From contig NZ_JAATJE010000001.1 in assembly GCF_011927695.1 (NCBI RefSeq), forward strand, positions 1,550,001 to 1,614,000: DNA of 64,000 bases, read 5' to 3'. A model generated the notes under the pieces. The model saw nothing but the letters and a program-made list of their open reading frames with translations. It searched no databases and had not been told where the DNA came from. The DNA comes from Sphingomonas jejuensis. GTDB lineage: Bacteria; Pseudomonadota; Alphaproteobacteria; Sphingomonadales; Sphingomonadaceae. Positions 8,299-63,778 of the stretch are shown here, piece after piece; the first letter of the stretch is position 1; each line of letters opens with the position of its first letter. The translations under genes and the position numbers were made by a program.

Positions 8299-8335
8299 GG
8301 TCGGCCGCGGCGCGCCGGACCTGATGCGCAAAGAA

Positions 8336-8359
8336 AAAGCCCGGCGGAGGCCGGGCTTT
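8336..8359 (-). terminator. Intrinsic terminator between the permease gene and tRNA-Ala
   Basis: A perfect 10 bp stem AAAGCCCGGC / GCCGGGCTTT with a GGAG loop. On the minus strand it is followed by TTTTTCTTT, so it mainly terminates tRNA-Ala transcription. On the plus strand a short TTT run lies in its 3' arm, so it may also stop the permease transcript. Confidence 0.8.
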
Positions 8360-8366
8360 CTGGAGG

Positions 8367-8442
8367 TGGTGGAGACGAGGGGGATCGAACCCCTGACCTA
8401 CGCAATGCCATCGCGTCGCTCTCCCAGCTGAGCTACGTCCCC
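8367..8442 (-). tRNA. tRNA-Ala (anticodon GGC)
   Basis: 76 nt including an encoded CCA. Read on the minus strand it starts GGGGACG and ends with the pairing CGTCTCC followed by ACCA. The D arm GCTC..GAGC, the anticodon stem ACGCG/TGCGT with loop ATGGCAT (anticodon GGC), and the T arm with GGTTCGATCC are all present. It is followed by the terminator at 8336-8359. Confidence 0.95.
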
Positions 8443-8513
8443 GAAACCATCAAGCCGCCCGCTGGTGGGCAGCGCCGCCGTCCTAAAGCAAAGGCCGGCG
8501 GCGATTGCAAGCG

Positions 8514-8831
8514 TCAGCTGTCGTCGTCGTCGTCGCTGGTCGCAACGCCCAGATCGTCGTCGCCGCCCAGATCCACCTCGTCGTCCGGGCTCTCCTCGCC
8601 GTCCTCGTCGATCTCCAGCTCGTTGTCGCCGAGATCGCTGTCGGCTTCCTTCTTCTCGTCCTTCTTCTTGGGCGCATCGAAGGGCAGCGGCTGCTTCGAC
8701 TTCAGGACGGACTCGGGTTCCCACGCGTTGCCGCAATTGATGCAGGTCACGGGATCGTCCTTGCCCAGATCATAGAAGCGCGTGCCGCACTTGGGACAGG
8801 TGCGCTTGGCGCCCCATTCAGGCTTGACCAT
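8514..8831 (-). CDS. FYDLN-acid (TIGR02300) family protein
   Basis: 105 residues. The N-terminal half carries a zinc ribbon (CPKCG at 12-16 and CINCG at 30-34) that includes the eponymous FYDLGKDDP segment. A Lys-rich patch and then a long acidic tail dominated by Asp and Glu follow. This layout is the alphaproteobacterial TIGR02300/FYDLN_acid family, whose function is unknown; nucleic-acid or protein binding through the ribbon is a guess. It is divergent from aroA and just upstream of tRNA-Ala on the same strand. Confidence 0.9.
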   Translation of the reverse strand: MVKPEWGAKRTCPKCGTRFYDLGKDDPVTCINCGNAWEPESVLKSKQPLPFDAPKKKDEKKEADSDLGDNELEIDEDGEESPDDEVDLGGDDDLGVATSDDDDDS

Positions 8832-8965
8832 GTTTCGGTCGTCTCCGGTTCAACGAAAAGGGATGGCGGCGGCAGGGCGAACGCCCTCCGCCTGATCGGC
8901 GCGCGCCTTGCCAGATGCGGGTGCCGCTGTCAAAAACCGCCGCCGTCCTCCGACCCAAGGTGTTG

Positions 8966-10300
8966 ATGTCCGCCGCCGCCCCGCCCTCGCCCGCGCGCTT
9001 TGCCATGTCCGGGCCGCTGTCCGGCCGCATCCGCACGCCGGGCGACAAGTCGATCAGCCACCGCGCCATCATGTTTTCCGCCCTTGCGGTCGGCACCAGC
9101 CGCATCGCCGGCCTGCTTGAGGGAGAGGATGTGCTCGCGACCGCCGCCGCCATGCGCGCGATGGGGGCGTCGATCGAACGGCAGGACGACGGCACCTGGC
9201 ATGTCGACGGCGTCGGCGTGGGCGGCCTGCTCCAGCCGCGCCAGGCGCTCGACATGGGCAATTCGGGAACCTCGACCCGGCTGCTGATGGGGCTGGTGGC
9301 GAGCCATGGCATCACCGCCACCTTCATCGGCGACGCGTCTCTGTCGGCCCGCCCCATGGCCCGCGTCATCGATCCGCTGTCCCTGATGGGCGCGGACATC
9401 GTCGCGAGCCCCGGCGGCCGCCTGCCGCTCTCCGTGCGCGGCCTCGTGCCCGCGGTTGCGCTCAGCTACCGCCTTCCCGTCGCCTCCGCGCAGGTCAAAT
9501 CGGCGCTGCTGCTGGCCGGGCTCAACACGCCCGGCGTGACCCGGGTGATCGAGCCCGTGCCCACGCGCGACCACAGCGAACGGATGCTGCGCGGCTTCGG
9601 CGCCGACCTGTCGGTCACCGAGGAGGATGGCGCCAGAGTGATCGTGCTCCGCGGCGAGGCGGAGCTCCAGCCGCAGGACATCGTGGTTCCGGGCGACCCG
9701 TCGTCCGCCGCCTTCTTCATCGTCGCCGCCTTGATCGTGCCCGGCTCCGACGTGGTGGTGGAAGGGGTCGGCCTCAATGCCACCCGCGCCGGGCTGATCC
9801 GCGTGCTCAAGGACATGGGCGCCGACATCAGCGCGGCGAACGAGCGCGCGGTCGGCGGCGAGCCCGTGGCGGACCTCCACATCCGTCACTCTCGCCTGAC
9901 CGGCATCGACGTGCCGCCCGAGGTCGCGCCGTCGATGATCGACGAGTTTCCGGCTTTTTTCGTGGCGGCCGCCTTTGCCACCGGCACCACCCGCACGTGC
10001 GGCTTGGAGGAGCTGCGGGTGAAGGAATCGGATCGGCTGGCAACCATGGCCGCCGCGCTGGTCGCTGCGGGCGCCGGGGTGCGCGAGACGGAGGATGGCC
10101 TCGTCATCGAAGGCACCAGTGGAGAGCCGCTGCCCGGCGGCGCGACCGTCGCCACGCGCCTCGACCACCGCATCGCCATGAGCATGGCGGTGGCGGGCCT
10201 CCACAGCCGCGCCGCGATCGAGATCGACGACATGGCGCCGGTCGCGACCAGCTTTCCCGCTTTCACCCGGCTGCTCGACTCGCTTAGAACAAGCACATGA
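8966..10300 (+). CDS. aroA: 3-phosphoshikimate 1-carboxyvinyltransferase (EPSP synthase)
   Basis: 444 residues from the ATG at 8966, which has AAGG five bases upstream; an in-frame ATG 51 nt earlier is possible but adds a non-conserved extension. Catalyses the sixth shikimate-pathway step, joining PEP to shikimate-3-phosphate. Conserved pieces: RTPGDKSISHRA (substrate Lys), MGNSGTSTRLLMG, VPGDPSSAAFFIVAAL, the catalytic Asp in MIDEFPAFFVAA, LRVKESDRL and DHRIAMSMAVAG. The spacing and length fit the class II enzymes of alphaproteobacteria. It overlaps cmk by 4 nt (ATGA), a common arrangement. Confidence 0.97.
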   Translation: MSAAAPPSPARFAMSGPLSGRIRTPGDKSISHRAIMFSALAVGTSRIAGLLEGEDVLATAAAMRAMGASIERQDDGTWHVDGVGVGGLLQPRQALDMGNSGTSTRLLMGLVASHGITATFIGDASLSARPMARVIDPLSLMGADIVASPGGRLPLSVRGLVPAVALSYRLPVASAQVKSALLLAGLNTPGVTRVIEPVPTRDHSERMLRGFGADLSVTEEDGARVIVLRGEAELQPQDIVVPGDPSSAAFFIVAALIVPGSDVVVEGVGLNATRAGLIRVLKDMGADISAANERAVGGEPVADLHIRHSRLTGIDVPPEVAPSMIDEFPAFFVAAAFATGTTRTCGLEELRVKESDRLATMAAALVAAGAGVRETEDGLVIEGTSGEPLPGGATVATRLDHRIAMSMAVAGLHSRAAIEIDDMAPVATSFPAFTRLLDSLRTST

Positions 10301-28576: not shown

Positions 28577-30115
28577 ATGAAACCGGTCAACAACATCGTC
28601 ATCGTCGGGGGCGGAACCGCCGGCTGGCTGACAGCCGGAGTGATCGCCGCGCGCCATCGCGGGCGGCAGCCGCACGGCTTTTCCGTTACCCTGATCGAAT
28701 CGCCGAACGTCCCCATCATCGGCGTCGGCGAAGGCACATGGCCGACGCTGCGCACGACGCTGCGCACCATCGGCGTGTCCGAAACCGACTTCTTCCGGCA
28801 ATGCGATGCCGCCTTCAAGCAGGGCGCGCGCTTCAACCGCTGGACAACCGGTGCGGTGGATGACGGCTACTACCACCCGCTGATGCTGCCGCACGGGTTC
28901 GCGCGCCTGAACCTGGTGCCGCATTGGCTGCTCGACGCGAGCGGCAGCTTCTGCGACGCCGTGACGCCGCAAGGGCGGCTCTGCGATGAGGGGCTGGCGC
29001 CCAAGACGATCGCCACCCCGGAATATGAGGGGCCGGCCAACTACGCCTACCATCTGGATGCCGGGAAGTTCTCCAGCTTCCTGCAGGCGCACTGCTGCGA
29101 CACGCTTGGCGTCCGCCATGTCCTCGCCGACGTGACGGACGTGCGGATGGCCGACAATGGCGACGTCGCCGCCGTCGACACGGCGCAGGCGGGCATGATC
29201 GAGGGCGACCTGTTCATCGATTGCACGGGGTTCAAGGCGCTGCTGATCGACGGGGCGATGAAGGTGCCGTTCCGCTCACTGACCGACACGCTGTTCTGCG
29301 ACACGGCGCTGGCCGTGCAGGTCCCCCATGACGACCCGACCGACCCCGTCGCCTGCCACACGATCTCGACCGCGCAGACGGCCGGATGGATCTGGGACAT
29401 CGGCCTGCCCACCCGCCGCGGCGTCGGCCATGTGTTTTCAAGCAGCCATATCTCCGCAGACGAGGCCGAGCGCGAGCTGCGCGCCTATATCGGCCCAAAG
29501 GCGGACGGCCTCACCGTGCGCCGCATCCCGATCCGGTCCGGGCACCGGGAGACCTTTTGGAAGAACAACGTCGTCGCGGTGGGCCTGGCGGCGGGTTTCC
29601 TCGAACCCCTCGAGGCATCCGCGATCGTCCTGATCGAGCTGTCCGCCAAGATGATCGCGGAGCAGATGCCCGCCTGTCGCGAGGTGATGGACGTCGTCGC
29701 GCGCCGGTACAACGAAACCAGCCATTATCGCTGGGGCCGCATCGTTGATTTCCTGAAGCTGCATTATTCGCTCACCCGGCGCACCGACAGCGACTTCTGG
29801 CGGGACAATCAGCGGCCGGAGACGATCCCCGATCGCCTGCGCGACCTGATGGAGCTGTGGCGATACCAATCGCCATGGCTGCACGATGAGTTCGACCGAG
29901 CCGAGGAGGTGTTCCCGGCCGCCAGCTATCAATATGTCCTCTACGGCATGGGACACCGGACGGCCGCGCTGCCCGGCGCCCATGATGCGGAAGCGGAGCT
30001 CGCGCGGCGGGCATGGCGCGACAACAAGGCGCAGACGGCGCGGATGATGAGCGCGCTTCCGCGGCACCGCGATCTGCTCAACAAGATCGCCGAACATGGG
30101 ATGCAACCGATATGA
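28577..30115 (+). CDS. Tryptophan-halogenase family flavoprotein (copy 1)
   Basis: 512 residues. FAD motif IVIVGGGTAGWLTAGVIAAR at the N-terminus; GVGEGTWPTLRTTLRTIG; catalytic-type Lys81 in AAFKQGARF; and FLEPLEASAI holding the conserved Glu near 343-346. The family WxWxIP motif appears as WIWDIG (271-276), so both Trp remain but Pro is Gly. Flavin-dependent halogenases use FADH2, chloride or bromide and oxygen to form HOX that the Lys guides to an aromatic carbon. A flavin reductase is not adjacent. It overlaps the next gene by 4 nt. The substrate is unknown; association with TonB receptors rather than natural-product genes is typical of this subgroup. Confidence 0.85.
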   Translation: MKPVNNIVIVGGGTAGWLTAGVIAARHRGRQPHGFSVTLIESPNVPIIGVGEGTWPTLRTTLRTIGVSETDFFRQCDAAFKQGARFNRWTTGAVDDGYYHPLMLPHGFARLNLVPHWLLDASGSFCDAVTPQGRLCDEGLAPKTIATPEYEGPANYAYHLDAGKFSSFLQAHCCDTLGVRHVLADVTDVRMADNGDVAAVDTAQAGMIEGDLFIDCTGFKALLIDGAMKVPFRSLTDTLFCDTALAVQVPHDDPTDPVACHTISTAQTAGWIWDIGLPTRRGVGHVFSSSHISADEAERELRAYIGPKADGLTVRRIPIRSGHRETFWKNNVVAVGLAAGFLEPLEASAIVLIELSAKMIAEQMPACREVMDVVARRYNETSHYRWGRIVDFLKLHYSLTRRTDSDFWRDNQRPETIPDRLRDLMELWRYQSPWLHDEFDRAEEVFPAASYQYVLYGMGHRTAALPGAHDAEAELARRAWRDNKAQTARMMSALPRHRDLLNKIAEHGMQPI

Positions 30116-50735: not shown

Positions 50736-52898
50736 TCAATCGCCGCGTCCGGGCGCGTGCGGAAAGGTCAGGGACTTATAGTGGTCGAGGTTGTGCGCCG
50801 GCGGCGCCGCACCGGGCGGCAGCGGCAGTTCGGATACCGACTGGAAATAGGCGACGCTCGCATCCCGCCACCACCGCGCTTCATTCGCCTGGATGTCCAG
50901 GAACGTCGCCGTCTTGGCATGGCGTTCCGCATCGACGAACGGCCTTGTCCGGCTCCACAGGCGGTCCATCTCCGCCACGCGTGCAACCCCGCGATCGTAG
51001 CGGGCGATCAGCCCGGCCCACAGCGTCTCTCCCGTCGACAGCCGATGATCCCAAGGAAGATGATGGAACCACAGGAGGAGGTTGTCCGGCGTGGTTGCCG
51101 GATCGCCGAAGCGCCGCGCGACCGCCGGTGCATATTGCGACACCGCGTTGCTGCCGGTCACCGAGCGATCGAAGCCGATCCCCTCCCGGTCTGCCCGATG
51201 GTAGTAGGTCGGGTTCCACTCGGGCCTGGCCAGGTCGCCGACCCATGGTCCCGGTCCATAATGATGGTCCGTCGCCATCAGGTGCGCCAAGCCCAGCGGC
51301 GTCATGTAATCAACCACCGCCTCCCGCGACATCATCAGGATGTCGGTCACCGGCGCGATTGCTTCGGCCCGCGGTGAGAAGGTCTGCGCCGCCCACTCCC
51401 GGGCGATCTCGTCGGCCGGCAGCGCCGCATCCCAGGCGAGCCGCCCGAACGCGTACCAGTTCGCCTGATTGAAGGTCGATCCGCTCCAGTCCCGGTCGTC
51501 GCCGATGTTGGCGACACCTGCGATGCCGGTCAGCCGATCGCCTTGTCCGCTCCCCGCCACCACATCCGCGACGGTGCCCGCCGGGTGGCCCGTGTCGGTA
51601 TCCAGCACCTCCTCGAACAGCGTGCCGAGATAGGCGATGTGCGTCGCGAAGCCGAGATACTCCTTGGTGATCTGCAGCTCCAGCATCAGCGGCGTCTGCG
51701 GCATGGCGCCGAACAGCGGGTGGAACGGCTCGCGCGGCTGGAAGTCGATCGCGCCGTTCTTCACCTGCACGATGACATTGTCGTCGAACCGGCCGTCGAG
51801 CGGCTGGAACTCGGCATAGGCCTGCTTGGCACGGTCCGCCGCGTCGGTCTCCGAATATACAAAGGCGCGCCACATAACGACCCCGCCATGCGGTGCGAGC
51901 GCCCGGGCGAGCATGTTCGCGCCCTCGGCATGGCTGCGGCCATAATCGCCGGGGCCCGGCTGCCCCTCTGAGTTGGCCTTGACGAGAAAACCGCCGAAAT
52001 CAGGGATGCGGGCGTAAATGCGATTCGCCGTCTGCGCCCACCATCTTCCGACGGCGGGGTCGACAGGGTCGGCGCTCTGCAGTCCGCCGATCTCGATCGG
52101 CGCGGAAAAGCGCGCGGAGAGGTACACCTTGATGCCGTACGGGCGCAGCATATCGGCAATCGCCGCGACCTTCTCCAGATAGCGGGGCGTCAGGATCTCG
52201 GCGCTGGCATTGACGTTGTTCAGCACCGTCCCATTGATGCCGATCGATGCGTTGGCGCGGGCGTAATCCGTCAGCCGCGGGTCGCGCCAATCCGGAAGCA
52301 GCCACCAGTCCCAGAGTGAATCGCCGGCATAGCCACGCTCGACATGCCCATCGAGGTTGTCCCAGTGATTGAGGACCCTGAGGCGCACCTTCGGCGCCGA
52401 TCGAAGGTCCAGCACGTCGATCGCGCGCCCCTGCCCCAGGTGACGCAGAAGACCGAAGCTGCCGTAGAGCAGCCCCTGCTCCGTTCGCGCCCCGATCACG
52501 GTCACCGGCACGCTGCCGACGCTCGCGGAGCGCAGCACGAACCCTTCGTCGCCAAGTCCCCGTAGGTCGACTCCGGCCTCGCGCAGCCTGGGATCGCCTT
52601 CCCGCAGCATCAGGATCGTCCCCGCCTGCAGGCGCGTGGTGCGGATCGGCGCGCGACCGACCATGCCCGCCAGCCCTCGCTCCAGCTCGGCCGCAGCGAC
52701 GGCCGCGACCGGCCCGGGTTCCGGGGGCAGCATGATGGCGGTCAGCGCCGGCCGAATAGCCGCAGCCTCGGCTTCGGCCAGCGGCGCGTAGCGCAGCCAC
52801 AGGCGGAAGCCATCCTCCGCCGATGCGGCCGCAGGCAGCAACAGCACCGCCATCGCAATCAGCAATCGTCGCACCCGTGTGATGATCGGCCTTGCCAC
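50736..52898 (-). CDS. GH67 alpha-glucuronidase
   Basis: 720 residues from a GTG at 52898 behind GGGAGGAG; the frame stays open through the antisense of the next gene, but the signal peptide VRRLLIAMAVLLLPAAASAE fixes the start. Removes 4-O-methyl-glucuronic acid from the non-reducing end of xylo-oligosaccharides. Family segments: LRVLNHWDNLDGHVERGYAG, DYARANASIGINGTVLNNVN, GGFLVKANSEGQPGPGDYGR, LQITKEYLGFATHIAYLGTL and EWNPTYYHRADREGIGFDR with the expected acidic residues. Normal GH67 length. First gene of an operon with xylD; a xyl-box lies in the divergent promoter region. Confidence 0.93.
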   Translation of the reverse strand: MARPIITRVRRLLIAMAVLLLPAAASAEDGFRLWLRYAPLAEAEAAAIRPALTAIMLPPEPGPVAAVAAAELERGLAGMVGRAPIRTTRLQAGTILMLREGDPRLREAGVDLRGLGDEGFVLRSASVGSVPVTVIGARTEQGLLYGSFGLLRHLGQGRAIDVLDLRSAPKVRLRVLNHWDNLDGHVERGYAGDSLWDWWLLPDWRDPRLTDYARANASIGINGTVLNNVNASAEILTPRYLEKVAAIADMLRPYGIKVYLSARFSAPIEIGGLQSADPVDPAVGRWWAQTANRIYARIPDFGGFLVKANSEGQPGPGDYGRSHAEGANMLARALAPHGGVVMWRAFVYSETDAADRAKQAYAEFQPLDGRFDDNVIVQVKNGAIDFQPREPFHPLFGAMPQTPLMLELQITKEYLGFATHIAYLGTLFEEVLDTDTGHPAGTVADVVAGSGQGDRLTGIAGVANIGDDRDWSGSTFNQANWYAFGRLAWDAALPADEIAREWAAQTFSPRAEAIAPVTDILMMSREAVVDYMTPLGLAHLMATDHHYGPGPWVGDLARPEWNPTYYHRADREGIGFDRSVTGSNAVSQYAPAVARRFGDPATTPDNLLLWFHHLPWDHRLSTGETLWAGLIARYDRGVARVAEMDRLWSRTRPFVDAERHAKTATFLDIQANEARWWRDASVAYFQSVSELPLPPGAAPPAHNLDHYKSLTFPHAPGRGD

Positions 52899-52936
52899 GG
52901 CTCTCCTCCCGCGCCACCCCGGTCTCGGCCGGACCT

Positions 52937-52965
52937 TTGCGCGCTTGGTCAAAGCGTTATCATGG
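52937..52965 (+). promoter_or_regulatory. Putative promoter of the DUF6445 gene
   Basis: TTGCGC (52937-52942), 17 bp, TCATGG (52960-52965). The operator starts on the fifth -10 base. Nearly the same elements as at 39918. The GH67-xylD promoter should be on the opposite strand nearby, but I could not place it. Confidence 0.45.
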
Positions 52966-52975
52966 TAGCGCTCCC
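52964..52975. promoter_or_regulatory. xyl-box-like operator 4 (GGTAGCGCTCCC)
   Basis: AGCGCT-centred dyad in the 114 nt between GH67 and the DUF6445 gene, so it could repress both divergent transcripts. Confidence 0.55.
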
Positions 52976-53012
52976 GCGCAAGGGCCGGGCATGGTGGCAG
53001 CGGGGAAAGATC

Positions 53013-53759
53013 ATGTCCAACGCGGAAGATGATCAGGGTCTGACGACGATCGCTCCCCTTGCGCCGGTCAGCACTCGGCTTGGTCGCGAAGGCGAGCAGC
53101 TGCTGAAGATCGAACGGCTGCTTTCCGATCCTTCCCCGCTCATCCGGGCGGCGGCGGTCGCGCGGTACACGCCCGCTTATGGTCCCGCCGGGGGCTATCC
53201 CGGCATCCGGGCGCCCGCGCCTCCTGCCTATGTGCGGGCGGTCGCTCTCGCCCTGTTCCCGCTCATCCGGGACGTCTTTGCTCTGGGCGACGTGCGGCTG
53301 GGTCGCGCCGAGGCCACGCTCTCGCTGGTGACGCTGCCGCCGGACACGCTCGTCCCCGCACAGCGCGTGCCGCATGTCGACACGCATCATCCCCTTCAGT
53401 TCGCAATCCTTCATTATCTTTGTGGGGAGGAGTTCGGCGGCACCGCCTTCTTCCGACATCGTGCCACCGGATTCGAGACATTGGCGCCCGATCGGCAGGA
53501 TCTGTTCGACACCGCGCAGGCTGACGAGCAGCGCGGCCATCCGCCGGAAGGGTATCGGGTGGGATCGGACCGCTGGTTCGAGGAGATCGGGCGGGTCGAC
53601 GCGGCCTTCAACCGCGTCGCCGTCTATCGCAGCCGGCTGCTGCATTCCGGTGTGATCGCATCGCCGGAACGCCTCTCCGCAGATCCGGCGCGCGGGCGGT
53701 TGACCGCCAACATCTTCCTGACGCTGCGGCAGAACGCGACCGCCGGCGGCACGTCCTGA
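53013..53759 (+). CDS. DUF6445 family protein, 2-oxoglutarate-oxygenase-like
   Basis: 248 residues from the ATG at 53013 (GGGGAAAGA upstream). No signal peptide. The core has an iron-triad-like pattern: His-x-Asp in RVPHVDTHHPLQFAILHYLC, a distal His in YRSRLLHSGVIASPERL and an Arg in GRLTANIFLTLR that could hold 2-oxoglutarate. This fits the DUF6445 family found beside TonB receptors and halogenase-family genes in sphingomonads. Target unknown; prolyl-hydroxylase-like chemistry on a protein is a hypothesis. Convergent with TonB receptor 2, sharing a terminator. Confidence 0.72.
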   Translation: MSNAEDDQGLTTIAPLAPVSTRLGREGEQLLKIERLLSDPSPLIRAAAVARYTPAYGPAGGYPGIRAPAPPAYVRAVALALFPLIRDVFALGDVRLGRAEATLSLVTLPPDTLVPAQRVPHVDTHHPLQFAILHYLCGEEFGGTAFFRHRATGFETLAPDRQDLFDTAQADEQRGHPPEGYRVGSDRWFEEIGRVDAAFNRVAVYRSRLLHSGVIASPERLSADPARGRLTANIFLTLRQNATAGGTS

Positions 53760-53829: not shown

Positions 53830-56800
53830 TCAGAAGTTGAAGCGCGCCAGCATCGAGAAGCGGCGGTCGTTCATGAACCAGCCGCGCGGGATGATGCGGA
53901 TGTCGTCCTCCCCGCCCGGCCCCTGCACCGCGACCGAGGTCTTGGTAATCGAGTTGGTCAGGTTCACGCCCTGGATACCCAGGCGGAAGTTCGGCGTGAC
54001 CTGCACGAACACCGATGCGTCGAGCTGGCCGTACGCCTCCTGAAACACGGGGTCGTAGGGCACGATCACGTCGCGGGTGGTCAGCAGATACTGCGACCGC
54101 CAGCTGTAGGCCGCACGCAGCGACACGCCGCCATATTCGTAAAATGGCGTGATGTTCACCGTGTGCTTGGACAGGCCCTGAAGACCGAAGCCCGAGACGT
54201 CGACGTTGGACACCAGGCCATCCGCGACCGAGAGATCGCCCGGATCAAGCGTCGGCTGCGGCACGCCGGAGCTGTCGACATAGGTGTAGTTCGCCTGCAA
54301 CCCCAGGCCCGCCAGTGCGCCGGGCAGGAAGTCGTAGGTCTGCTGGTACGCGATCTCCACACCCTTCACGGTTCCGGTATCGGGCGAGTTGATCTCGCGC
54401 GTCACCACGCCTTCGAAGGTCTGCCCGTTGTTGGTGAAGCTCTGCCGCTCCGTCGCGAACACGACGACGCCCTTCACCCGCTTGTAGAAGCCCGAGAGCG
54501 TCAGCGAGCCGACATCGTCGAAATACCACTCGGCCGTCAGGTCGAAATTGTCGGCAGTCACCGGCAACAGGTCGGGCGACCCGGCGCGGATGCCCGCACC
54601 CTCGATGCGCACCTGGCCCTCGCCGGAGATGATCCCGTCGTTGGGATCGTCCGTCGCCAGGTTCGGCGTCACCGTCAGCTGCGCGCCCGGCGGCGTCTGC
54701 GGGCCGATGCTGATCGGGTAGTAGTTGCGGATCTGCGTCGTGTTGGGCGGCGAGATCCCCTTGAAGTAGGCCGCGCGGAACTGCACCCCGCCGCCGACCT
54801 CAAGCCGCAGGTTCACCGCGGGCAGCACATAGTCGTAGCTCAGCTCGAAATCGTTCGGCTCGACCGCCGCGTTCGAGAAGGCGCGCGCCGCCGCACGGGC
54901 CTGCGGATTGCTGTAGAGGAAGGCGCAGCCCGCCGGCACCGTCGGTGTCGTCGGCGGGGTTTCGCCCGCCTGCGGATTCACGATCTGCCGGATCGCCGTG
55001 CGGCAGGTCGCGTCGTCGGTCAGCGGGTCGGTGCCGCCGAACTGGAAGAAGCCGCCGCTGGTCCGCTCGGTCTTGCTGTACCGCACGCCGACGTTGCCGG
55101 TGAAGCGGACGCCGTTGTCGAACTCCTGCTCCAAGTTCGCCATGATGTAGGCGGCGTTGTTGATCTCCTCGATCGGGTTCACCTCGCCCGGCAGGTAGGG
55201 CGAACCCGCAAGCACGCCCGGCCGCTCGGCAAGCGGAACCCAGCCGGTCGCTCCACCGGTCGGCACCGAACCCGCCGGCAGCCACTCGTCGCGGATGCTC
55301 TTCGCAAAGGCGATGTAGGACGCATAGTCCTTCGCCGGCTGGCCGGAATAATAGAGCCGCCCGAGCGCCGGTGACGGCACCTGCCCGCGCATGAAGTCGC
55401 CGAAGATGAAGGAGCGGTAGGATCCGACCTGCGAGTTGGGGCCGGTCTGGTCCGCGCCGGCGCCGCCGATCTGCTCGTCCAGCCAGACGGGACCGCCATT
55501 GCCCCACTGCTCCGACAGCACACCCCAGTTGTAGGTCGAGTTGCGGGCGATCTGGTCGCGATCGGCATAGCGATAGCCGGCGCGGATCGACTGCAGGAAG
55601 CCGGTTTCCGGGAAGCTCAGTTCGGCATCGAAGCGAAACGCGTCGGAGTTGCCCGACGATTCCTCCACATGGTCCATCGCCGAGCGCCAGAAGGTGCTGG
55701 CCGGATCAAGGAAGCCGTTCGTCCCTGCCAGATAGGTGGGATAATTGGCCGACGATCCCGGTGTTCCGATGCACTGGCCCTGCGCGTTGGTCGCCACCGT
55801 CTCGCAGGTCTGCGGCGCAACGAAGCGCACCTCGGGCAGGTCCTTGCCGCGCAGGTCGATGAACACGTCCTGGTAGGACGACGTCCACAATCCGTTGTCG
55901 ACAACCTCGCCACGCGATTCGACATGGCTGTAGTCGAACACGAAGCCGAGCCGATCGCTCGGATCCCAGCGGAAGTTGAAGCCATAGTCGTCGGTGACGC
56001 TCTGCTCCTCGTGGCCGCGATACTGGTTGTTCGACTGGAGGCCGAAGGCGGGCGTGCGCGTGCCGGCCAGGTTGGGGCCGGTGCCGGGTGCCGTCTGCTG
56101 GTCGGCGCGCCATCCGGTCGGGCCGGTGATCAGGCCCTGGTCGAACAGGTCGTCGTCGTCGAACGACACGGTGGTGCCGGCGCGCGCGCGGCTGTCGCCG
56201 GCTGCCGTCACGTTGTCCGTCGCGATCTCGATGGTGTTCTCGGTCCAGGACTGGCGCGCGTCCGACCGGAGGAACTGGAAGATCGCTTCCATCGAGCCGT
56301 CGTTGCTGCGCCACTGCGCGGCGGCGGCATAGCCATAACGCTCACGGTTGAAGTCCTGCGTGCCCATCACGGCGCCGCGCGGGAAGATGCCGCTGCCGGT
56401 CTGCGTCGCGCCGTCGAACGGCACCACGTCGGTGCGCGTGCCGTTGCTGTACACCGGGCGCGTCCGGAAGCTGGACACCTGCAGGCGGTCGTTCCGCGTG
56501 AACAGCTGCGAGTAGACGATGCTGCCCAGGATGCCGATGTCGCCGATGCCGGTTTCCCAGCGCGTGCTGCCGGTCAGCGACAGCGTCGGGGCCGACCTGT
56601 TGACGAAGTCGCCGTAATTGATCTCCGCCGATCCCGCGAGATAGGACTTGGCGCTGTCGAAGGGCTTGCGCGTGCGCAGGTTGACGATGCCGGAAATGCC
56701 GCCCTCGATGCGGTCCGCCGACGGCGACTTGAACACGTCCACGCCGCCGAGCAGCTCGGACGGCACGTCCTGGAAGCCGAGCGAGCGGCCATTGAGGGCG

Positions 56801-57366
56801 GAGAACGCCTCGCGGCCGTTGAATTCCGACCGCACATAGGTGAGGCCGCGCACGGTCGCCTGCGATCCTTCCACGGAGAAGTGGTCGGGATCGACGCCGG
56901 CGGCAAAGCGGCTGATCGACACGCCCGGGATGCGCTGCAGGGTCTCGACCACCGACCGGTCGGGCAACGCGCCGATGTCTTCCGACGTGACCGAATCCAC
57001 GATCACGTTGGAGTCACGCTTGATCGACTGGGCGTTCTGCAGCGACTGCCGGTAGCCGGTGACGATCACGTCCTCTTCGGAGGCGGTGGCGTCATCGTCC
57101 GTCAACGCGGCCGGCGGCGTCGAGGTTGCCGGCGTCACCCCCAGCGCCTCGGCAGACGATCCGCCGCTCGCGCCCGTCGTTCCCTGCGCCGGCGGCGTCG
57201 TGCGCGGCTGCGATGCCTGGGCGGTGGTGGCTGCGGTCGCCTGCTGCGCAAGCGCGGGGGTCCCGGCTCCAGCACCCGCAAGGACGAGCACGGAACAGCC
57301 CGACCACAGGCCGGACATCGCGCCGCGGCGCGAACGAGACATGACTCGAGGTTCGGCCTTCAGCAA
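53830..57366 (-). CDS. TonB-dependent receptor 2 (TonB-Xanth-Caul type)
   Basis: About 1178 residues from a TTG at 57366 that follows GGGAGGG; the ATG at 57342 is the alternative. The longest open start (57408) would place the operator inside the coding region, so I reject it. Signal peptide around VLVLAGAGAGTPALAQ, then a Thr/Ala/Pro-rich linker, TonB-box-like EEDVIVTGYRQSLQ, and a plug with SVTSEDIGALPDRSVVETLQ and GSQATVRGLTYVRSEFNGRE. The large barrel ends ERRFSMLARFNF-like (NDRRFSMLARFNF). Imports oligosaccharides across the outer membrane. Two operator-like dyads precede it; halogenase-family genes diverge upstream. Confidence 0.92.
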   Translation of the reverse strand: MLKAEPRVMSRSRRGAMSGLWSGCSVLVLAGAGAGTPALAQQATAATTAQASQPRTTPPAQGTTGASGGSSAEALGVTPATSTPPAALTDDDATASEEDVIVTGYRQSLQNAQSIKRDSNVIVDSVTSEDIGALPDRSVVETLQRIPGVSISRFAAGVDPDHFSVEGSQATVRGLTYVRSEFNGREAFSALNGRSLGFQDVPSELLGGVDVFKSPSADRIEGGISGIVNLRTRKPFDSAKSYLAGSAEINYGDFVNRSAPTLSLTGSTRWETGIGDIGILGSIVYSQLFTRNDRLQVSSFRTRPVYSNGTRTDVVPFDGATQTGSGIFPRGAVMGTQDFNRERYGYAAAAQWRSNDGSMEAIFQFLRSDARQSWTENTIEIATDNVTAAGDSRARAGTTVSFDDDDLFDQGLITGPTGWRADQQTAPGTGPNLAGTRTPAFGLQSNNQYRGHEEQSVTDDYGFNFRWDPSDRLGFVFDYSHVESRGEVVDNGLWTSSYQDVFIDLRGKDLPEVRFVAPQTCETVATNAQGQCIGTPGSSANYPTYLAGTNGFLDPASTFWRSAMDHVEESSGNSDAFRFDAELSFPETGFLQSIRAGYRYADRDQIARNSTYNWGVLSEQWGNGGPVWLDEQIGGAGADQTGPNSQVGSYRSFIFGDFMRGQVPSPALGRLYYSGQPAKDYASYIAFAKSIRDEWLPAGSVPTGGATGWVPLAERPGVLAGSPYLPGEVNPIEEINNAAYIMANLEQEFDNGVRFTGNVGVRYSKTERTSGGFFQFGGTDPLTDDATCRTAIRQIVNPQAGETPPTTPTVPAGCAFLYSNPQARAAARAFSNAAVEPNDFELSYDYVLPAVNLRLEVGGGVQFRAAYFKGISPPNTTQIRNYYPISIGPQTPPGAQLTVTPNLATDDPNDGIISGEGQVRIEGAGIRAGSPDLLPVTADNFDLTAEWYFDDVGSLTLSGFYKRVKGVVVFATERQSFTNNGQTFEGVVTREINSPDTGTVKGVEIAYQQTYDFLPGALAGLGLQANYTYVDSSGVPQPTLDPGDLSVADGLVSNVDVSGFGLQGLSKHTVNITPFYEYGGVSLRAAYSWRSQYLLTTRDVIVPYDPVFQEAYGQLDASVFVQVTPNFRLGIQGVNLTNSITKTSVAVQGPGGEDDIRIIPRGWFMNDRRFSMLARFNF

Positions 57367-57379
57367 TCCACCCTCCCGT

Positions 57380-57391
57380 TGTAGCGCTAAC
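57380..57391. promoter_or_regulatory. xyl-box-like operator 5 (minus-strand GTTAGCGCTACA)
   Basis: Upstream of TonB receptor 2. On the minus strand TGATGT (57395-57390) would be the -10, again with the dyad starting on its fifth base. Confidence 0.6.
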
Positions 57392-57413
57392 ATCACCGAG
57401 TTGCGCATTTGAT

Positions 57414-57547: not shown

Positions 57548-59038
57548 GTGGAGCAGGATCGCATCAGGACCGTGTTGATCGTCGGCGGCGGCACCGCCGG
57601 CTGGATGACCGCGGCTGCCTTGGCTCACAAGCTTGCTGATACCGGTATCGCCGTCACTCTCGTCGAGTCGGAGGAGATCGGCACCGTGGGCGTGGGGGAA
57701 GCCACCGTGCCGCACATCCGGCACTTCAACGCCAGCCTCGGCTTCGACGAAGCCCACTTCATGTCGGAAACGCAGGCGACCTTCAAACTCGGCATCGAGT
57801 TTCGCAACTGGGGGCGGATCGGCGACAGCTATATCCACCCGTTCGGCGTGTTCGGCGCGCCGATCGATGGCGCCGAATTCCATCATCACTGGGTCCGGCT
57901 CCACCACGCCGGGCAGGCCGCCCCGTTCGATCATTATTCCTTGCCGTGCGAAATGGCGCGCACCAGCCGCTTCGCGCATCCGTCGACCGATCCGGCCTCG
58001 CCGCTGTCGACCTTCTCCTACGCCTATCAATTCGATGCGCTGCTCTACGCCCGTTACCTCCGGCGCTATGCAGAAGGTCGCGGCGTGCGGCGGACCGAAG
58101 GGCGCGTGGTCTCCGTCGACCGCAGCGAGGACAGCGGCGATGTCGCAGCCGTGCGGCTGGCGGACGGACGCGTGCTTGCCGCCGACTTCTTTGTCGACTG
58201 CTCCGGCTTTCGCGGGCTCCTGATCGAAGGGGCGCTCGGCGCGGGCTATGAGGATTGGAGCCACTGGCTGCCCTGCGACCGGGCGGTGGCCGTCCCGTGC
58301 GAGCGCCGGCCCGACAGCGGCATCACGCCCTACACGCGCGCCACCGCCCTGGCCGCCGGCTGGGCATGGCGCATCCCGCTTCGCCACCGCACCGGCAACG
58401 GCCATGTCTATTCCAGCCGCTTCACCGATGATGACGCTGCGGAGGCGGCGCTGCTGGCTGAACTTGACGGGGCGCCGCTTGCCGACCCGCGCCGGCTTCG
58501 CTTCACCACCGGCAAGCGCCGGCGTCAGTGGATCGGCAACACGGTGGCGATCGGTCTCGCCGCGGGCTTCCTGGAGCCGCTCGAGTCCACTTCCATCCAT
58601 CTGGTCCAGCTTGCGATCGGCCGGCTGCTCGACCTTTTCCCGACGGGAAGCCCCGACCCGGTCGACGCGACCGAATTCAACCGGCTGATGGATGCCGAAT
58701 ATGATCGGATCCGCGACTTCCTGATTCTTCACTATTGCGCGACGCAGCGGGACGACACCGCCTTCTGGTCCTATGTCCGCACCATGGAACTGCCGCACAG
58801 CCTGGCAGAAGCCATCTCGCTGTTCCGCGCGCGCGGTGTTGTTCCGCTCTACCGCCACGGCATGTTCCTGGAACCGAGCTGGCTGGCCGTCTTCCTGGGT
58901 CAGCGCATGATCCCCGATGCCGTCGACCCTCGCGCCGCCCGAACCCCGGTCCCGGACAGCGCGGCGTCGGCGCAGGCATGGCGCGGCGCGCTTGTCGCCC
59001 AGGCTGCCTCCCTCCCTCCGCATCTGGCGGATGCATGA
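57548..59038 (+). CDS. Tryptophan-halogenase family flavoprotein (copy 2)
   Basis: 496 residues from a GTG at 57548. FAD motif TVLIVGGGTAGWMTAAALAH; VGEATVPHIRHFNASLGFDE; catalytic-type Lys80 in ATFKLGIEFRNW; complete WAWRIP (272-277); and GFLEPLESTSIHLVQLAIGR with the conserved Glu. So the flavin, Lys and WxWxIP features of flavin-dependent halogenases are all intact. Divergent from TonB receptor 2 across a region with two operator-like dyads; overlaps copy 3 by 4 nt. Substrate unknown; relatives from Brevundimonas and Xanthomonas act on free indoles in vitro, but their native substrates are not established as far as I know. Confidence 0.88.
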   Translation: MEQDRIRTVLIVGGGTAGWMTAAALAHKLADTGIAVTLVESEEIGTVGVGEATVPHIRHFNASLGFDEAHFMSETQATFKLGIEFRNWGRIGDSYIHPFGVFGAPIDGAEFHHHWVRLHHAGQAAPFDHYSLPCEMARTSRFAHPSTDPASPLSTFSYAYQFDALLYARYLRRYAEGRGVRRTEGRVVSVDRSEDSGDVAAVRLADGRVLAADFFVDCSGFRGLLIEGALGAGYEDWSHWLPCDRAVAVPCERRPDSGITPYTRATALAAGWAWRIPLRHRTGNGHVYSSRFTDDDAAEAALLAELDGAPLADPRRLRFTTGKRRRQWIGNTVAIGLAAGFLEPLESTSIHLVQLAIGRLLDLFPTGSPDPVDATEFNRLMDAEYDRIRDFLILHYCATQRDDTAFWSYVRTMELPHSLAEAISLFRARGVVPLYRHGMFLEPSWLAVFLGQRMIPDAVDPRAARTPVPDSAASAQAWRGALVAQAASLPPHLADA

Positions 59039-60456
59039 TCGCGCCGGCCGCTCCCACGATCATCATCGCCGGCGACGGCCTTCTCGCCTGGCTGGCCGCG
59101 GTCAGGCTGGCGGCTGCGGTCGGCGGCAGCCGGGTGCGCGTCGTTCCTGCTGGCAGCGTCGACCATGGGATTGGACCGGTCGGCCCCAGCGCCATCGCCC
59201 TTCCGCAGTGGACCGCACGCGCGCTGGCGGCGGACAGTCCGGTCGCCGATGCGCTGGGCGAAGCGGCCACCGGCTGGGTTCAGGGGATCGGCTTTCGCGA
59301 CTGGTCGGGGCGCGGCACCGCCGCCTTCTGGTCCTTCGGCGATGTCGGCGCACCGCTCGACGGCATCCCCTTTCATCAGATCCTCGCCCGCTGGCGGGCG
59401 GATGGCCGACCGGCCCAGGGCGCCGACTTCTCGCTGGCCGCGCTGGCCGCCCGCGCCGGGCGCGGCATCGCGCCTGCGCCGCACCCCGGCTCTCCGCTGT
59501 CAACGCTCTCGCCTGGCGTGATGCTGTCGGTGACGCGCTTCGCAGCCGCGCTCCGCACCCGCGCGACGGCACGAGCCGTAGAGCTGCTGGCGCCGCTTGC
59601 GGAGGCTCGGATCGACGAAACCGGGCAGATCGACCATCTCCGGCTCCAGGATGAAACGGAGGTTCGCGCCGACCTTTACGTCGATTGCACGGGTGAACAG
59701 CGCCGGCTGATCGATCGCGTCGCCGGGGACGGGTTCGATCCCTGGCGCGACCGCCTCCCGTGCGACCGGGTGACGTGGACCACGGCCGCCCCCCGCGCGC
59801 CGCAACCCTTCGCCATCCACCGGGCGGAAGGTGCCGGCTGGGCCGTGGATCAATGGACCGGCGATGGCTGGGTGACCCAGCGCATCGGCGCCAGCATCTT
59901 CGGTGCGGACGGGGCTCCCTTCCTCCCGGGCGCGCATCGCCGTCCCTGGTCGGGCAATGTCGTCGCGCTCGGCTCCGCCGCCTTGGTGGTGGACCCGCTC
60001 CACGCGCTTCCCCTCGCCACCGCCGCTGATGCGCTCGACCTGCTGCTGACACTGCTTCCCGCCACGCCGGGCGGACAGGCGGAGGCCAGCCAGTTCAACC
60101 GCGTCGCATCCCGCCGGCATGCGCGGGTGCGCGACCTCTCTCAGCTGCCATACCGGCTCAACCGCCGGCGGGGCGAGCCATTCTGGGATGCGGTCCGCGC
60201 GGCACCCGCCGACGATGCGCTGCTGTCGAAGATCGCGCTGTTCGAAAGCCGCGGCCGCGTGTCGATGCTCGACGATGAGCCCGTCGACGAGGACGACTGG
60301 ATCTGGCTCCTCGACATGTTCGCCGCCTCTCCCCGCCGGCAGGAGCCGCGCGCAGCGGCACTTCCGCTGACCGCGATCGAAGCGCATCTTGCCCGCGTCC
60401 GGGACCGCCTGGTTGCGGCCGTGCGCGATCTCCCGCCGGTGGCGGCCACCCATTGA
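59035..60456 (+). CDS. Degenerate tryptophan-halogenase paralogue (copy 3, likely pseudoenzyme)
   Basis: 473 residues, ATG at 59035 overlapping copy 2 (ATGA). Same overall plan as its neighbours: N-terminal IIIAGDGLLAWLAAVRLAAA in place of the GGGTAGW FAD motif, DLYVDCTGEQRRLIDRVAGD matching the family DCSGFR..LI block, and a helical C-terminus. The catalytic features are gone: the Lys position reads GWVQGIGFRDW (Gln), WxWxIP reads WAVDQW, and FLEPLEST reads VVDPLHALPL. The frame is intact with normal codon use, so it appears to be maintained for a non-catalytic role, for example as partner of copies 2 and 4. FAD binding is doubtful. Confidence 0.75.
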   Translation: MIAPAAPTIIIAGDGLLAWLAAVRLAAAVGGSRVRVVPAGSVDHGIGPVGPSAIALPQWTARALAADSPVADALGEAATGWVQGIGFRDWSGRGTAAFWSFGDVGAPLDGIPFHQILARWRADGRPAQGADFSLAALAARAGRGIAPAPHPGSPLSTLSPGVMLSVTRFAAALRTRATARAVELLAPLAEARIDETGQIDHLRLQDETEVRADLYVDCTGEQRRLIDRVAGDGFDPWRDRLPCDRVTWTTAAPRAPQPFAIHRAEGAGWAVDQWTGDGWVTQRIGASIFGADGAPFLPGAHRRPWSGNVVALGSAALVVDPLHALPLATAADALDLLLTLLPATPGGQAEASQFNRVASRRHARVRDLSQLPYRLNRRRGEPFWDAVRAAPADDALLSKIALFESRGRVSMLDDEPVDEDDWIWLLDMFAASPRRQEPRAAALPLTAIEAHLARVRDRLVAAVRDLPPVAATH

Positions 60457-60467
60457 GAACAGGATCC

Positions 60468-61988
60468 ATGAACCAGGCGCCCCTTCCCCCCGATCGTATC
60501 CGCCGCATCGTCATCGTCGGCGGCGGCAGCGCCGGATGGATGGCCGCCGCCACCCTCGCCCGCATCCTGGGGCCGGACTATGCCGACGTCACCGTCGTGG
60601 AATCGGACGAGATCGGCACCGTCGGGGTCGGCGAGGCGACCATCCCACAGATGGCGACCTTCAACCGCATGCTCGGCATCGACGAGGACGAGTTCATCCG
60701 GGAGACCAAGGGCAGCTTCAAGCTCGGCATCGAGTTCGTCGACTGGGCCCGCATCGGCCACAGCTACTTCCACCCGTTCGGCAGCTTCGGCGTCAACATG
60801 GGCGGCGTGTCCTTCCACGCCTACTACCTGCGCGCACGCGCCAACGGCGACACCCGGCCGATCGAGGACTGGTCGCTGCAGGCGACCGCTGCCAGCCGCG
60901 GCAAGTTCATGCGCCCGATCGACGCCGGCCGATCACCGCTGTCGGAGATCGCCTATGCCTACCATTTCGATGCGGGCCTCTACGCGAACTACCTGCGCCG
61001 GTTCGCGGAGGCGCGCGGCGTCGTCCGGCAGGAAGGCCGCGTCGTCGATGTGCCGCTGCGGCCCGGCGACGGCTTTGTGGAGGCTGTGGTGCTCGCCGAC
61101 GGCACCCGGATCGGGGGCGATCTGTTCATCGACTGCTCCGGCTTCCGGGCGCTGCTGATCGGAAAGGCGCTCGGCACCGGCTTTGTGGACTGGTCGCACT
61201 GGCTGCCCTGCGACCGGGCCGTCGCCGTGCCCTGCGCCGGCAGCGACGCGATGACGCCCTTCACGCGCTCCACCGCGCGCAAGGCCGGCTGGCAATGGCG
61301 CATCCCGCTGCAGCATCGGGTCGGCAACGGCCATGTCTATTGCAGCCGCTACCTCAGCGACGACGAGGCAACGGCCATGCTGCTCGAAAACCTGGATGGG
61401 GAGCCGCTTGCCGATCCCCGTCTGGTGCCGTTCCGCACCGGGCACCGCACGTCCTTCTGGGTGCGCAACTGCGTCGCTCTGGGCCTCGCCGCCGGCTTCA
61501 TGGAACCGCTCGAATCGACCAGCCTCTGGCTGATCCAGAGCGGCATCTCCCGCCTCCTCGCCATGTTCCCGGATCGGCGCTTCGATCCTGCGGAGATCGA
61601 TCGCTACAACCGGATCCTGTCGACCGAATATGCCGAGATCCGCGACTTCCTGATCCTCCATTACCACGCGACCGAGCGCCGCGACTCCGCCTTCTGGGAT
61701 CATTGCCGCAACATGGCCGTGCCGGAACGACTGGCCGAGAAGATGCGCGTTTTCCAAAGCCACGGCCGCACGTTCCGGGAGAACGAAGAGCTGTTCAACG
61801 ACACCAGCTGGTTCGCCGTGATGCTCGGGCAGCAGCTGGCGCCGCGTGCCTATGATCCGGTCGCCGACATGATGAGCTGGGACGAAACGGAACGGCGGCT
61901 GGCGCATATCCGCGACGCGATCAACAACTCGGCCGACTACATGCCGCCCCACCGCGAATTCATCCGCGCCAACTGCGCGGCGACGTGA
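60468..61988 (+). CDS. Tryptophan-halogenase family flavoprotein (copy 4)
   Basis: 506 residues; the ATG at 60468 lies 11 nt after the copy 3 stop with AGGA just upstream. FAD motif RIVIVGGGSAGWMAAATLAR, GVGEATIPQMATFNRMLGID, Lys85 in GSFKLGIEFVDW, WQWRIP (275-280) and GFMEPLESTSLWLIQSGISR are all intact. It is closer to copy 2 than to copy 1 (shared DWSHWLPCDRAVAVPC and GNGHVY segments). Third gene of the tandem operon. Predicted FADH2-dependent halogenase or related oxidase with an unknown substrate; no flavin reductase is nearby. Confidence 0.88.
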   Translation: MNQAPLPPDRIRRIVIVGGGSAGWMAAATLARILGPDYADVTVVESDEIGTVGVGEATIPQMATFNRMLGIDEDEFIRETKGSFKLGIEFVDWARIGHSYFHPFGSFGVNMGGVSFHAYYLRARANGDTRPIEDWSLQATAASRGKFMRPIDAGRSPLSEIAYAYHFDAGLYANYLRRFAEARGVVRQEGRVVDVPLRPGDGFVEAVVLADGTRIGGDLFIDCSGFRALLIGKALGTGFVDWSHWLPCDRAVAVPCAGSDAMTPFTRSTARKAGWQWRIPLQHRVGNGHVYCSRYLSDDEATAMLLENLDGEPLADPRLVPFRTGHRTSFWVRNCVALGLAAGFMEPLESTSLWLIQSGISRLLAMFPDRRFDPAEIDRYNRILSTEYAEIRDFLILHYHATERRDSAFWDHCRNMAVPERLAEKMRVFQSHGRTFRENEELFNDTSWFAVMLGQQLAPRAYDPVADMMSWDETERRLAHIRDAINNSADYMPPHREFIRANCAAT

Positions 61989-62056: not shown

Positions 62057-63778
62057 ATGTTCAGATCTTTGTGTGTCGGGCTGCTTGCGTCTGTCGCCGC
62101 CGGCTGTGCCTCGCTTCCGGCCGACCGCGCGGGGATCGATGCCGCAGGCCCCGGCCCGGTCGCCAGCTTCGACCGCTTCACATACTCCGGCAGCGATCCG
62201 ACCGACACGGTGGCCCTTGGGTCAGGCGACTATCGCAATCCGATCCTCCAGGGCTTCTACCCGGATCCCAGCATCACCCGGGTCGGAGACGATTATTACC
62301 TCGTCACCTCCACCTTCTCCTACTTTCCGGGCATCCCGGTGTTCCACAGCCGCGATCTCGTGACCTGGCGGCAGATCGGCAATGCGATCGACCGTCCGGG
62401 CCAGCTTGATTTCGGCCGGCTGGGCCTGTCGCGCGGTGTGTTCGCGCCGACCATCGAGCACCGGAACGGCACCTTCTATATCCTCAACACCTGCGTCGAT
62501 TGCGGCGACAATTTCGTCCTGACCGCAACCGATCCGGCAGGGCCGTGGAGCGATCCAACCTGGCTGCCCGATCTGCGCGGCGGCATCGATCCATCCTTCT
62601 TCTTCGACGAAGACGGCAGCGCGTGGATCCTGAACAACGGCCCGCCCGAAGGCACGCCCCGCTACGAAGGGCATCGCGCCATCTGGATCCAGCGGTTCGA
62701 CCTTGCCACGATGCAGACGACGGGGCCGCGCAAGGTGCTGGTCGACGGCGGCGTCGACCCCTCCACCAACCCCATCTGGATCGAAGGCCCGCACATCCTG
62801 AAGAAGGATGGCTGGTACTACCTGCTCGCGGCGGAAGGCGGCACGGCCGTCAACCATTCGCAGGTGGCGCTTCGATCGCGCCGTCCGGACGGCCCCTACA
62901 CGCCCAACCCCGCAAACCCGATCCTCACGCAAAGGGATCTGGCGGCCGACCGGTCCAACCCGATCACCTCGGCCGGCCATGCGGATCTTGTGCAGCTTCC
63001 GAACGGCGACTGGTGGGCCACCTTCCTGGCGGTGCGGCCCTATCGGGGCGATTTCTACAACACCGGGCGGGAGACCTTCCTGCTGCCGGTCCAATGGGTC
63101 GACGGGTGGCCCCGCATCACCCGTCCGGGCGAGCCGATCGCCACCGTCCACCCCCGCCCCGCCCTGCCGCGCAGCCCGGCAGGCTCCGTCCCGACGAACG
63201 GCCCGTTCACCGTCGCCTATGACTTCGCGGATGCGGAACTCGGGCCCGAGTGGATGATGATGCGCAATCCCGACGGACGCTGGTACCGGCTCGGCGATGG
63301 CGCCTTGCATCTTCAGGCTCGCGTCGCCGCGCTCGGCGACAACGGCAACCCGTCCTTCCTCGCGCGTCGCCAGCAGCACCGGGATGCCGTTGCCGAAACC
63401 ACGGTGCGCTTCGTGCCGGAGCGTGACGGCGACGAGGCCGGCCTGGTCGCCTTGCAGAGCGACGATCACTGGCTTTCGGTGACCATCGCCCATGTCGGCG
63501 GCCGCCCCGTGCTGCGCGCCGCTCTCCGCGACGGCAGCGACGATCCCGCAACCGGCCGCACTCTTGCGACGGCCCCGCTCCCGGGCGCTCCCGGCACACC
63601 GGTGGATCTCAGTATCACCGGCAACGCCCGGCGCTACCAGCTCGCGTGGCGCGCGGCAGGAACAGAATGGCGCACGCTTGCCGACGATATCGACCCCACC
63701 ATCCTCAGCACGGCGCATGCCGGCGGCTTCGTGGGTGCCGTCTTCGGCGTTTATGCGCACAGCGGCGCTTCCCGGTGA
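62057..63778 (+). CDS. GH43 beta-xylosidase-like lipoprotein with C-terminal beta-sandwich
   Basis: 573 residues. Lipobox: SLCVGLLASVAAGCASL, so lipid-anchored after Cys17. Catalytic propeller with base Asp in GFYPDPSITRVGDDYYLVTS, Asp in GGIDPSFFFDEDGSAWILNN and acid Glu in IWIEGPHILKKDGWYYLLAA, plus FPGIPVFHSRDLVTWRQIG as in beta-xylosidases. From about residue 385 a concanavalin-like beta-sandwich (FDFADAELGPEWMMMRNP-type, GDEAGLVALQSDDHWLSVTI) completes the substrate pocket in this subgroup. Probably trims xylo- or arabinoxylo-oligosaccharides at the membrane. Overlaps the next GH9 start by 4 nt. Confidence 0.9.
   Translation: MFRSLCVGLLASVAAGCASLPADRAGIDAAGPGPVASFDRFTYSGSDPTDTVALGSGDYRNPILQGFYPDPSITRVGDDYYLVTSTFSYFPGIPVFHSRDLVTWRQIGNAIDRPGQLDFGRLGLSRGVFAPTIEHRNGTFYILNTCVDCGDNFVLTATDPAGPWSDPTWLPDLRGGIDPSFFFDEDGSAWILNNGPPEGTPRYEGHRAIWIQRFDLATMQTTGPRKVLVDGGVDPSTNPIWIEGPHILKKDGWYYLLAAEGGTAVNHSQVALRSRRPDGPYTPNPANPILTQRDLAADRSNPITSAGHADLVQLPNGDWWATFLAVRPYRGDFYNTGRETFLLPVQWVDGWPRITRPGEPIATVHPRPALPRSPAGSVPTNGPFTVAYDFADAELGPEWMMMRNPDGRWYRLGDGALHLQARVAALGDNGNPSFLARRQQHRDAVAETTVRFVPERDGDEAGLVALQSDDHWLSVTIAHVGGRPVLRAALRDGSDDPATGRTLATAPLPGAPGTPVDLSITGNARRYQLAWRAAGTEWRTLADDIDPTILSTAHAGGFVGAVFGVYAHSGASR

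Follow-up and report, generated by a model that had tools for sequence, protein, structure and literature searches.

Copy 3, the middle one of three neighbouring halogenase genes of family PF04820 near the end of the analysed window (the whole stretch of 64,000 nucleotides from Sphingomonas jejuensis), has almost certainly lost the ability to halogenate, as judged from its motifs. Because genes of its kind, here called b, are paired near-exclusively with one halogenase subtype, here called a, we on balance favour the view that b is an old clade of pseudo-halogenases and that copy 3 is a dedicated non-catalytic partner of the a-type halogenase just upstream (copy 2).

The three plus-strand halogenase genes are divergent from a gene for a TonB-dependent receptor on the minus strand, and genes for GH67, GH43, GH3 and DUF6445 proteins surround the cluster in the window (Table 1). 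Judged by this gene content, the predicted role of the locus is the import and breakdown of plant glycans via the TonB-dependent receptor. The GH67 reading frame carries a long N-terminal extension that is probably not translated, since the domain only begins at residue 282. Copy 2 starts with GTG and is of the GVGEATVP subtype. Copy 3 runs from an ATG (59035) to a TGA (60456) with no internal stop, its stop lies 11 nt from the ATG of copy 4 (60468), and the frames of copies 2, 3 and 4 are all open. Elsewhere in the window, at 28577-30115, lies a third PF04820 subtype with relatives at L153:10206-11867, L119:17014-18663 and L194:3955-5562; the copies in the window, L153 and L119, at least, lie next to a TonB receptor, and the three tabulated relatives keep the lysine and have GVGEGTWP or GVGEGTFP for GVGEAT and WxWDIG for WxWxIP.

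Table 1. Genes and junctions of the halogenase locus, in window coordinates.
Feature	Position	Strand	Basis
GH67 alpha-glucuronidase	50736..53645	-	PF07488/PF07477/PF03648
DUF6445 protein; recurs in part of the orthologous loci	52962..53759	+	PF20043
TonB-dependent receptor, transcribed divergently from the halogenases	53830..57408	-	Pfam PF00593/PF07715
Copy 2 (a), intact BrvH-type halogenase, 496 aa	57548..59038	+	PF04820, motif alignment
ATGA start/stop overlap, copy 2 / copy 3	59035..59038	+	
Copy 3 (b), putative pseudo-halogenase, 473 aa	59035..60456	+	PF04820, motif alignment
Copy 4 (d), intact BrvH-type halogenase, 506 aa, GVGEATIP subtype	60468..61988	+	PF04820, motifs
GH43 beta-xylosidase-like	62057..63778	+	PF04616/PF17851

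Copy 3 belongs to PF04820 by homology, scoring 227 bits (cut-off 21, residues 9-443), which is above the gathering score but the weakest of the nine matches in the genome, against 654 bits for copy 2 and 662 for copy 4; no NCBIfam model matched it at E 0.01. With GWVQGIGF of copy 3 aligned over TFKLGIEF of the intact copies, the site of the catalytic lysine (K79 in PrnA, K83 in BrvH) is occupied by Val82, and Gln83 follows one position on. His323 (H323-A-L at EST) occupies the site of Glu346 of PrnA, the numbering of K79 and E346 having been checked on the 4z44 alignment (offset 16). WAVDQW stands at the WxWxIP site, DPLHAL at the EPLEST site and GDGLLAW at GGGTAGW, the GxGxxG FAD module, and the FAD-loop motif GVGEAT is broken to GPSAIA (GPSAIALP at GVGEATVP), while VDCTG is retained. 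Thus the lysine, Glu346/EST, WxWxIP and GxGxxG, which characterize a functional halogenase, are all missing. The difference in length from copies 2 and 4 stems mainly from the region of the WxWxIP segment and what follows it, and the GC content by codon position (0.78/0.58/0.83) is highest at the third, as in copies 2 and 4. The original prediction, which described copy 3 as an in-frame paralogue free of frameshifts and stops, with these motif losses, a kept VDCTG and tight junctions to two intact neighbours, is borne out in all these points; its loss of the lysine also stands, but the residue in register is valine rather than the glutamine that was named, and the length is not fully kept.

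Among solved structures, BrvH of Brevundimonas BAL3 (PDB 6FRL) is the nearest to copy 3, both in sequence (1.1e-43) and in fold. According to the available text of its report, BrvH is active on indole, has Lys83, Glu349, GxGxxG and WxWxIP, and is inactive as the Lys-to-Ala mutant K83A (PMC5945002). The motifs which that text names are present in copies 2 and 4, whereas copy 3 has none of the four. Because K83A kills BrvH, and because WxWxIP and EST are gone as well, the sequence evidence, as far as it can go, rules out that b halogenates.

The AF2 model of copy 3 (11 rows) has a pLDDT of 68.6 and a pTM of 0.76, with values below 50 at residues 42-71, 77-84, 149-164 and 245-295, in the regions of the FAD-loop motif, the lysine site and WxWxIP. 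With the same 11 rows, copy 2 reached 87.7 and fell below 50 only at residues 1-3, a contrast that is confounded by the rows, which share 31-57% identity with copy 2 but 23-33% with copy 3. The rows include seven of the nine loci (25-31% identical) from a contig scan with copy 3 alone, whose class, b or canonical, was unassigned. The active-site loops are ill-defined in the model of copy 3 and not in that of copy 2, which counts as weak evidence. The best Foldseek match of the copy 3 model was BrvH (5.5e-26, TM 0.72).

Orthologues of copy 3 were collected in two ways. A search with copy 3 itself among 397 genomes of the same family set three more genomes well apart by score from all others. 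A profile of these four sequences (A2), run on 151 genomes from the genus to which one of the relatives belongs, reached 531 bits or more in 19 genomes, the relative's own among them. A cut at 531 bits was dropped as a means of separating b from canonical copies, since two lower A2 matches, with 444 and 441 bits, also occupy the b position and some b-position copies score far lower. In the resulting 24 orthologous loci the gene order is a-b-(c)-d. A TonB receptor lies within the stretch in all 24, divergent and adjoining a in 23; in the remaining one (L116) it shares the strand of the halogenase genes and lies upstream, separated from them by other genes. Relatives of GH43 or GH67 are found in 16 of the 24 stretches. 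Each b frame is open, and none of the 24 b copies has the catalytic lysine, which is kept in 67/67 neighbours (24 a, 19 c and 24 d; c is missing in four loci, and a fifth, that of G412, is frameshifted and was left out of this count). The losses of the lysine, WxWxIP and EST recur in 23/23 further orthologous loci. Some orthologous b copies still have the FAD motifs (GGGVAGW with GPGEATLP); others, like copy 3, have lost them, and most orthologues show fewer broken motifs than copy 3. Two further halogenase copies occur in these stretches, one of them without the lysine. In G412, where b is open, the neighbouring c halogenase falls into two frames (L109, about 7984-10042): either the canonical copy rather than the degenerate one is broken there, or the assembly is wrong.

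The b clade is under purifying selection, weaker than that on a, as measured in relatives of copy 3; copy 3 itself is only about 39-40% identical to the nearest b, too far for dS, and all omega figures therefore refer to relatives. Of 49 close b pairs, 27 were usable in YN00, the other 22 having failed or fallen outside the dS limits, and these gave an omega for b of 0.05-0.24 (median 0.131, maximum 0.237), against a median of 0.074 and a maximum of 0.136 for a; b exceeded a in 27/27 pairs, by about 1.8 times. In a previous run, in which a, c and d served as controls, b had values of 0.05-0.26 by YN00 and 0.11-0.38 by NG86. By NG86, c copies paired with G502 reached 0.47-0.54, above b, and the G502 c, which shares just about 65% identity with the other c copies, is perhaps not orthologous to them. 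In an unrooted tree of 144 rows, b falls on one side of a branch (support 99), and so does a (98); without seven short or long b rows the support for b is again 99, and that for a drops to 23. Paths through b are 3.1 times as long as those through a, and copy 3 has one of the tree's five long end branches (1.64). Selective retention of the pseudoenzyme is, from these comparisons, a well-supported reading. The original prediction had named relaxed selection, or a lack of orthologues with the same losses, as the signs of a recent decaying duplicate; in the clade the omega values lie far below 1, and the losses are widespread.

Beyond the orthologous loci, low-scoring matches in three other receptor loci proved to be degenerate copies wedged between intact ones, and gaps of 1.0-1.6 kb between intact copies in further genomes held more of them, the shortest being 304-416 aa as trimmed. 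The a subtype was first recognised on these earlier loci and then tried on 40 stretches (L157-L196), ranked by similarity to copy 2 in a search of 199 genomes. The rule was fixed before the test sample was fetched: a GVGEAT[VL]P copy is followed directly by a copy without the lysine, and single-copy I-type loci have none. In the 40 stretches such a follower stood directly downstream of 26/26 GEATLP copies, 0/1 GEATVP copies (the a-like copy of L193 has no b) and 0/45 other copies with the lysine (44 I, 1 F). Together with 12 earlier ones these make 52 stretches, which cover the 58 best matches of copy 2 and in which a follower was found after 37/38 L or V copies and after 0/66 other intact copies. 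Over all loci the figures are 63/64 for L or V, 5/132 for I and 0/3 for F or W, the five I-type copies being those at the a position of orthologous loci. Only L157-L196 and the set of 58 were free of choice by b content; L046-L048, L098-L124 and L137-L151 were mostly picked for holding, or seeming to hold, b or a gap, and L152-L156 hold intact copies, taken from this genome and from two more. ORFs below 280 aa were left out of the counts, so that a b in small pieces would be uncounted, as was L123, which overlaps L116. From the 70 rows scored as lacking the lysine, the larger piece of the split G412 c was set aside, since a gap alone had placed it there and it is not a b.

Of the 69 copies of at least 280 aa without the lysine, 68 directly follow a copy that has it. 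These 68 a-b pairs are distributed over 67 genomes, 29 genera and two families. The 68 b copies retain the catalytic lysine, WxWxIP and EST in no case, GxGE in 5 and GxGxxG in 31, with the Glu at the Glu346 site alone kept in 6, while among 199 copies with the lysine WxWxIP is found in 192, EST in 192, GxGE in 199 and GxGxxG in 198. Position between two intact copies, stressed in the original prediction, holds here but is not general, as 23 of the 68 b copies have no halogenase directly downstream; the general rule is position directly after an a-type copy. The large genome searches scored 3 to 10 candidates per genome and do not imply absence from any genome. In a draw of 385 genomes of the class, with three candidates per genome, a-type copies of at least 800 bits outside the family of the window came from one genus only (G713 and G808). 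A further PF04820 copy without the lysine (L103:17035-18549, G478) lies beside a DUF6445 gene and not after an a-type copy; it has Arg for Lys, GAQATLP and GWQRRLP.

In an alignment of 47 pruned b rows, the columns of the lysine, GxGE, WxWxIP and EST are among those lost relative to a, and conserved sites peculiar to b lie in the C-terminal half, at R-G-R (406-408 of copy 3) and E350. The six shortest rows have lost most of the part equivalent to copy-2 residues 237-316, which hold WxWxIP, and mostly kept the rest. Eight of nine members of a b subgroup (L157, L160, L161, L164, L169, L171, L173, L182 and L192) have S-A-D at and after the EST place, L164 having C-G-D instead; S-A-D is possibly a new conserved site of the subgroup's own. 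One b gene, on the Niveispirillum cyanobacteriorum plasmid NZ_CP025614.1 (175704-177137; L197), is annotated as 'tryptophan 7-halogenase'. The residue at its lysine site is Ser, as read in L137, and the label is likely a misannotation.

Signals of gene linkage do not single out the pair. NTGA overlaps, counted with the start codon nearest to the overlap, join a and b in 57/68 cases and two intact copies in 38/44, and the ATGA overlap was consequently rejected as special evidence for a-b; coordinated expression, which the original prediction had argued from overlaps or tight spacing with both neighbours, is plausible. Evolutionary distances of a and b correlate with r 0.815 over 37 loci, compared with 0.748 for a and the receptor and 0.669 for b and the receptor; over 28 loci r was 0.737 for a and b and 0.731 for a and the next copy. 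Within the tree, the a subtree correlates with the b subtree (r 0.739), and 22/44 splits are common to both. Because the linked-gene controls nearly match a-b, mirroring of the two trees is little above linkage and was rejected as special evidence as well. Eleven of the 68 pairs have no receptor ORF of at least 550 aa in the stretch, and the receptor may lie outside it. The structural or regulatory partner that the original prediction had proposed is supported indirectly, through the near-exclusive subtype pairing, which points to a putative partnership of b with a and suggests that b is a helper subunit mislabelled as an enzyme.

How b might assist a can be framed by analogy. In the available text of their reports, BrvH elutes as a dimer (PMC5945002), and the crystal dimer of Xcc4156 from Xanthomonas campestris (PDB 6Y1W) resembles that of tryptophan halogenases, although its authors read it as possibly a monomer in solution (PMC7336383). 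A b chain could replace one chain of an a dimer, and b would most likely take one place in the dimer that fold relatives form with themselves, giving an a-b heterodimer or heteromer. Xcc4156 has the same fold as copy 3 and an open substrate site; it differs in that the active-site lysine is present, and the available text mentions no pseudo-partner (PMC7336383). The site of BrvH is likewise open and solvent-exposed, which its authors take, in the part available, as a hint at larger substrates (PMC5945002). The tryptophan 7-halogenases PrnA and RebH share the family fold, and Lys79 and Glu346 of PrnA define the sites discussed above; they act on free tryptophan, and copy 3 is without both residues. 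In the proposed complex, a would do the chemistry, and the part of b would be to recognise the substrate, to position it or to exert control. What a halogenates might be a large substrate belonging to the glycan-uptake system, which b would help to bind or control, and b could also serve the receptor or another operon protein. As a tentative extension, on the doubtful side, a and an obligate pseudo-subunit b would form the first two-subunit flavin-dependent halogenase, with the b half recognising a large substrate, such as the TonB receptor or some other protein encoded in a glycan-uptake locus, and the loci carrying a machine dedicated to protein halogenation. Dead paralogues that assist live ones are an already known kind: the trypanosome AdoMetDC prozyme and plant PDX1.2 are pseudoenzyme activators, in which the dead paralogue is needed for the activity of the live one. 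They resemble b in being retained beside the live paralogue, and differ in fold and kingdom and in that a complex has been shown there, whereas for a and b it is proposed. We found no description of a paired pseudo-halogenase in the open-licence PMC literature, and one may be in print elsewhere.

A rather unlikely account, though one that the linkage data suit, is that b is a free-standing binder on the old fold, for glycan fragments, the receptor or a metabolite, that makes no contact with a and is paired with it through operon inheritance. Its mirror-tree and overlap signals are hardly above those of linked genes, and its long paths in the tree are what a repurposed binder might show; yet b occurs only after the a subtype, and none of the 66 other halogenases of the rank-chosen set, often in the same operon, is followed by one. 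That b lost halogenation and became a different flavoenzyme, binding FAD in some lineages and catalysing another reaction, seems very unlikely. The b copies of G244, G450 and G465 do keep both GxGxxG and GxGE, but 37 of the 68 are without GxGxxG and 63 without GxGE, copy 3 among them, and short b copies are without a large part around WxWxIP, which makes one flavin chemistry common to the whole clade unlikely. Decay by drift, in which copy 3 would be a duplicate caught before its first stop, we hold to be extremely improbable: the long end branch and the many broken motifs of copy 3 are what it predicts, but the same position, the same lysine loss and open frames in 24/24 loci, with low omega in the relatives, contradict a recent decaying duplicate for the clade.

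Should b indeed serve a in this way, many of the PF04820 genes in this bacterial family would encode inactive enzymes, each tied to a specific functional halogenase. Screens in which BrvH-type halogenases of the a subtype are expressed alone may then miss the true activity and substrate, and the role of halogenases beside TonB receptors would become testable through the co-expressed pair.
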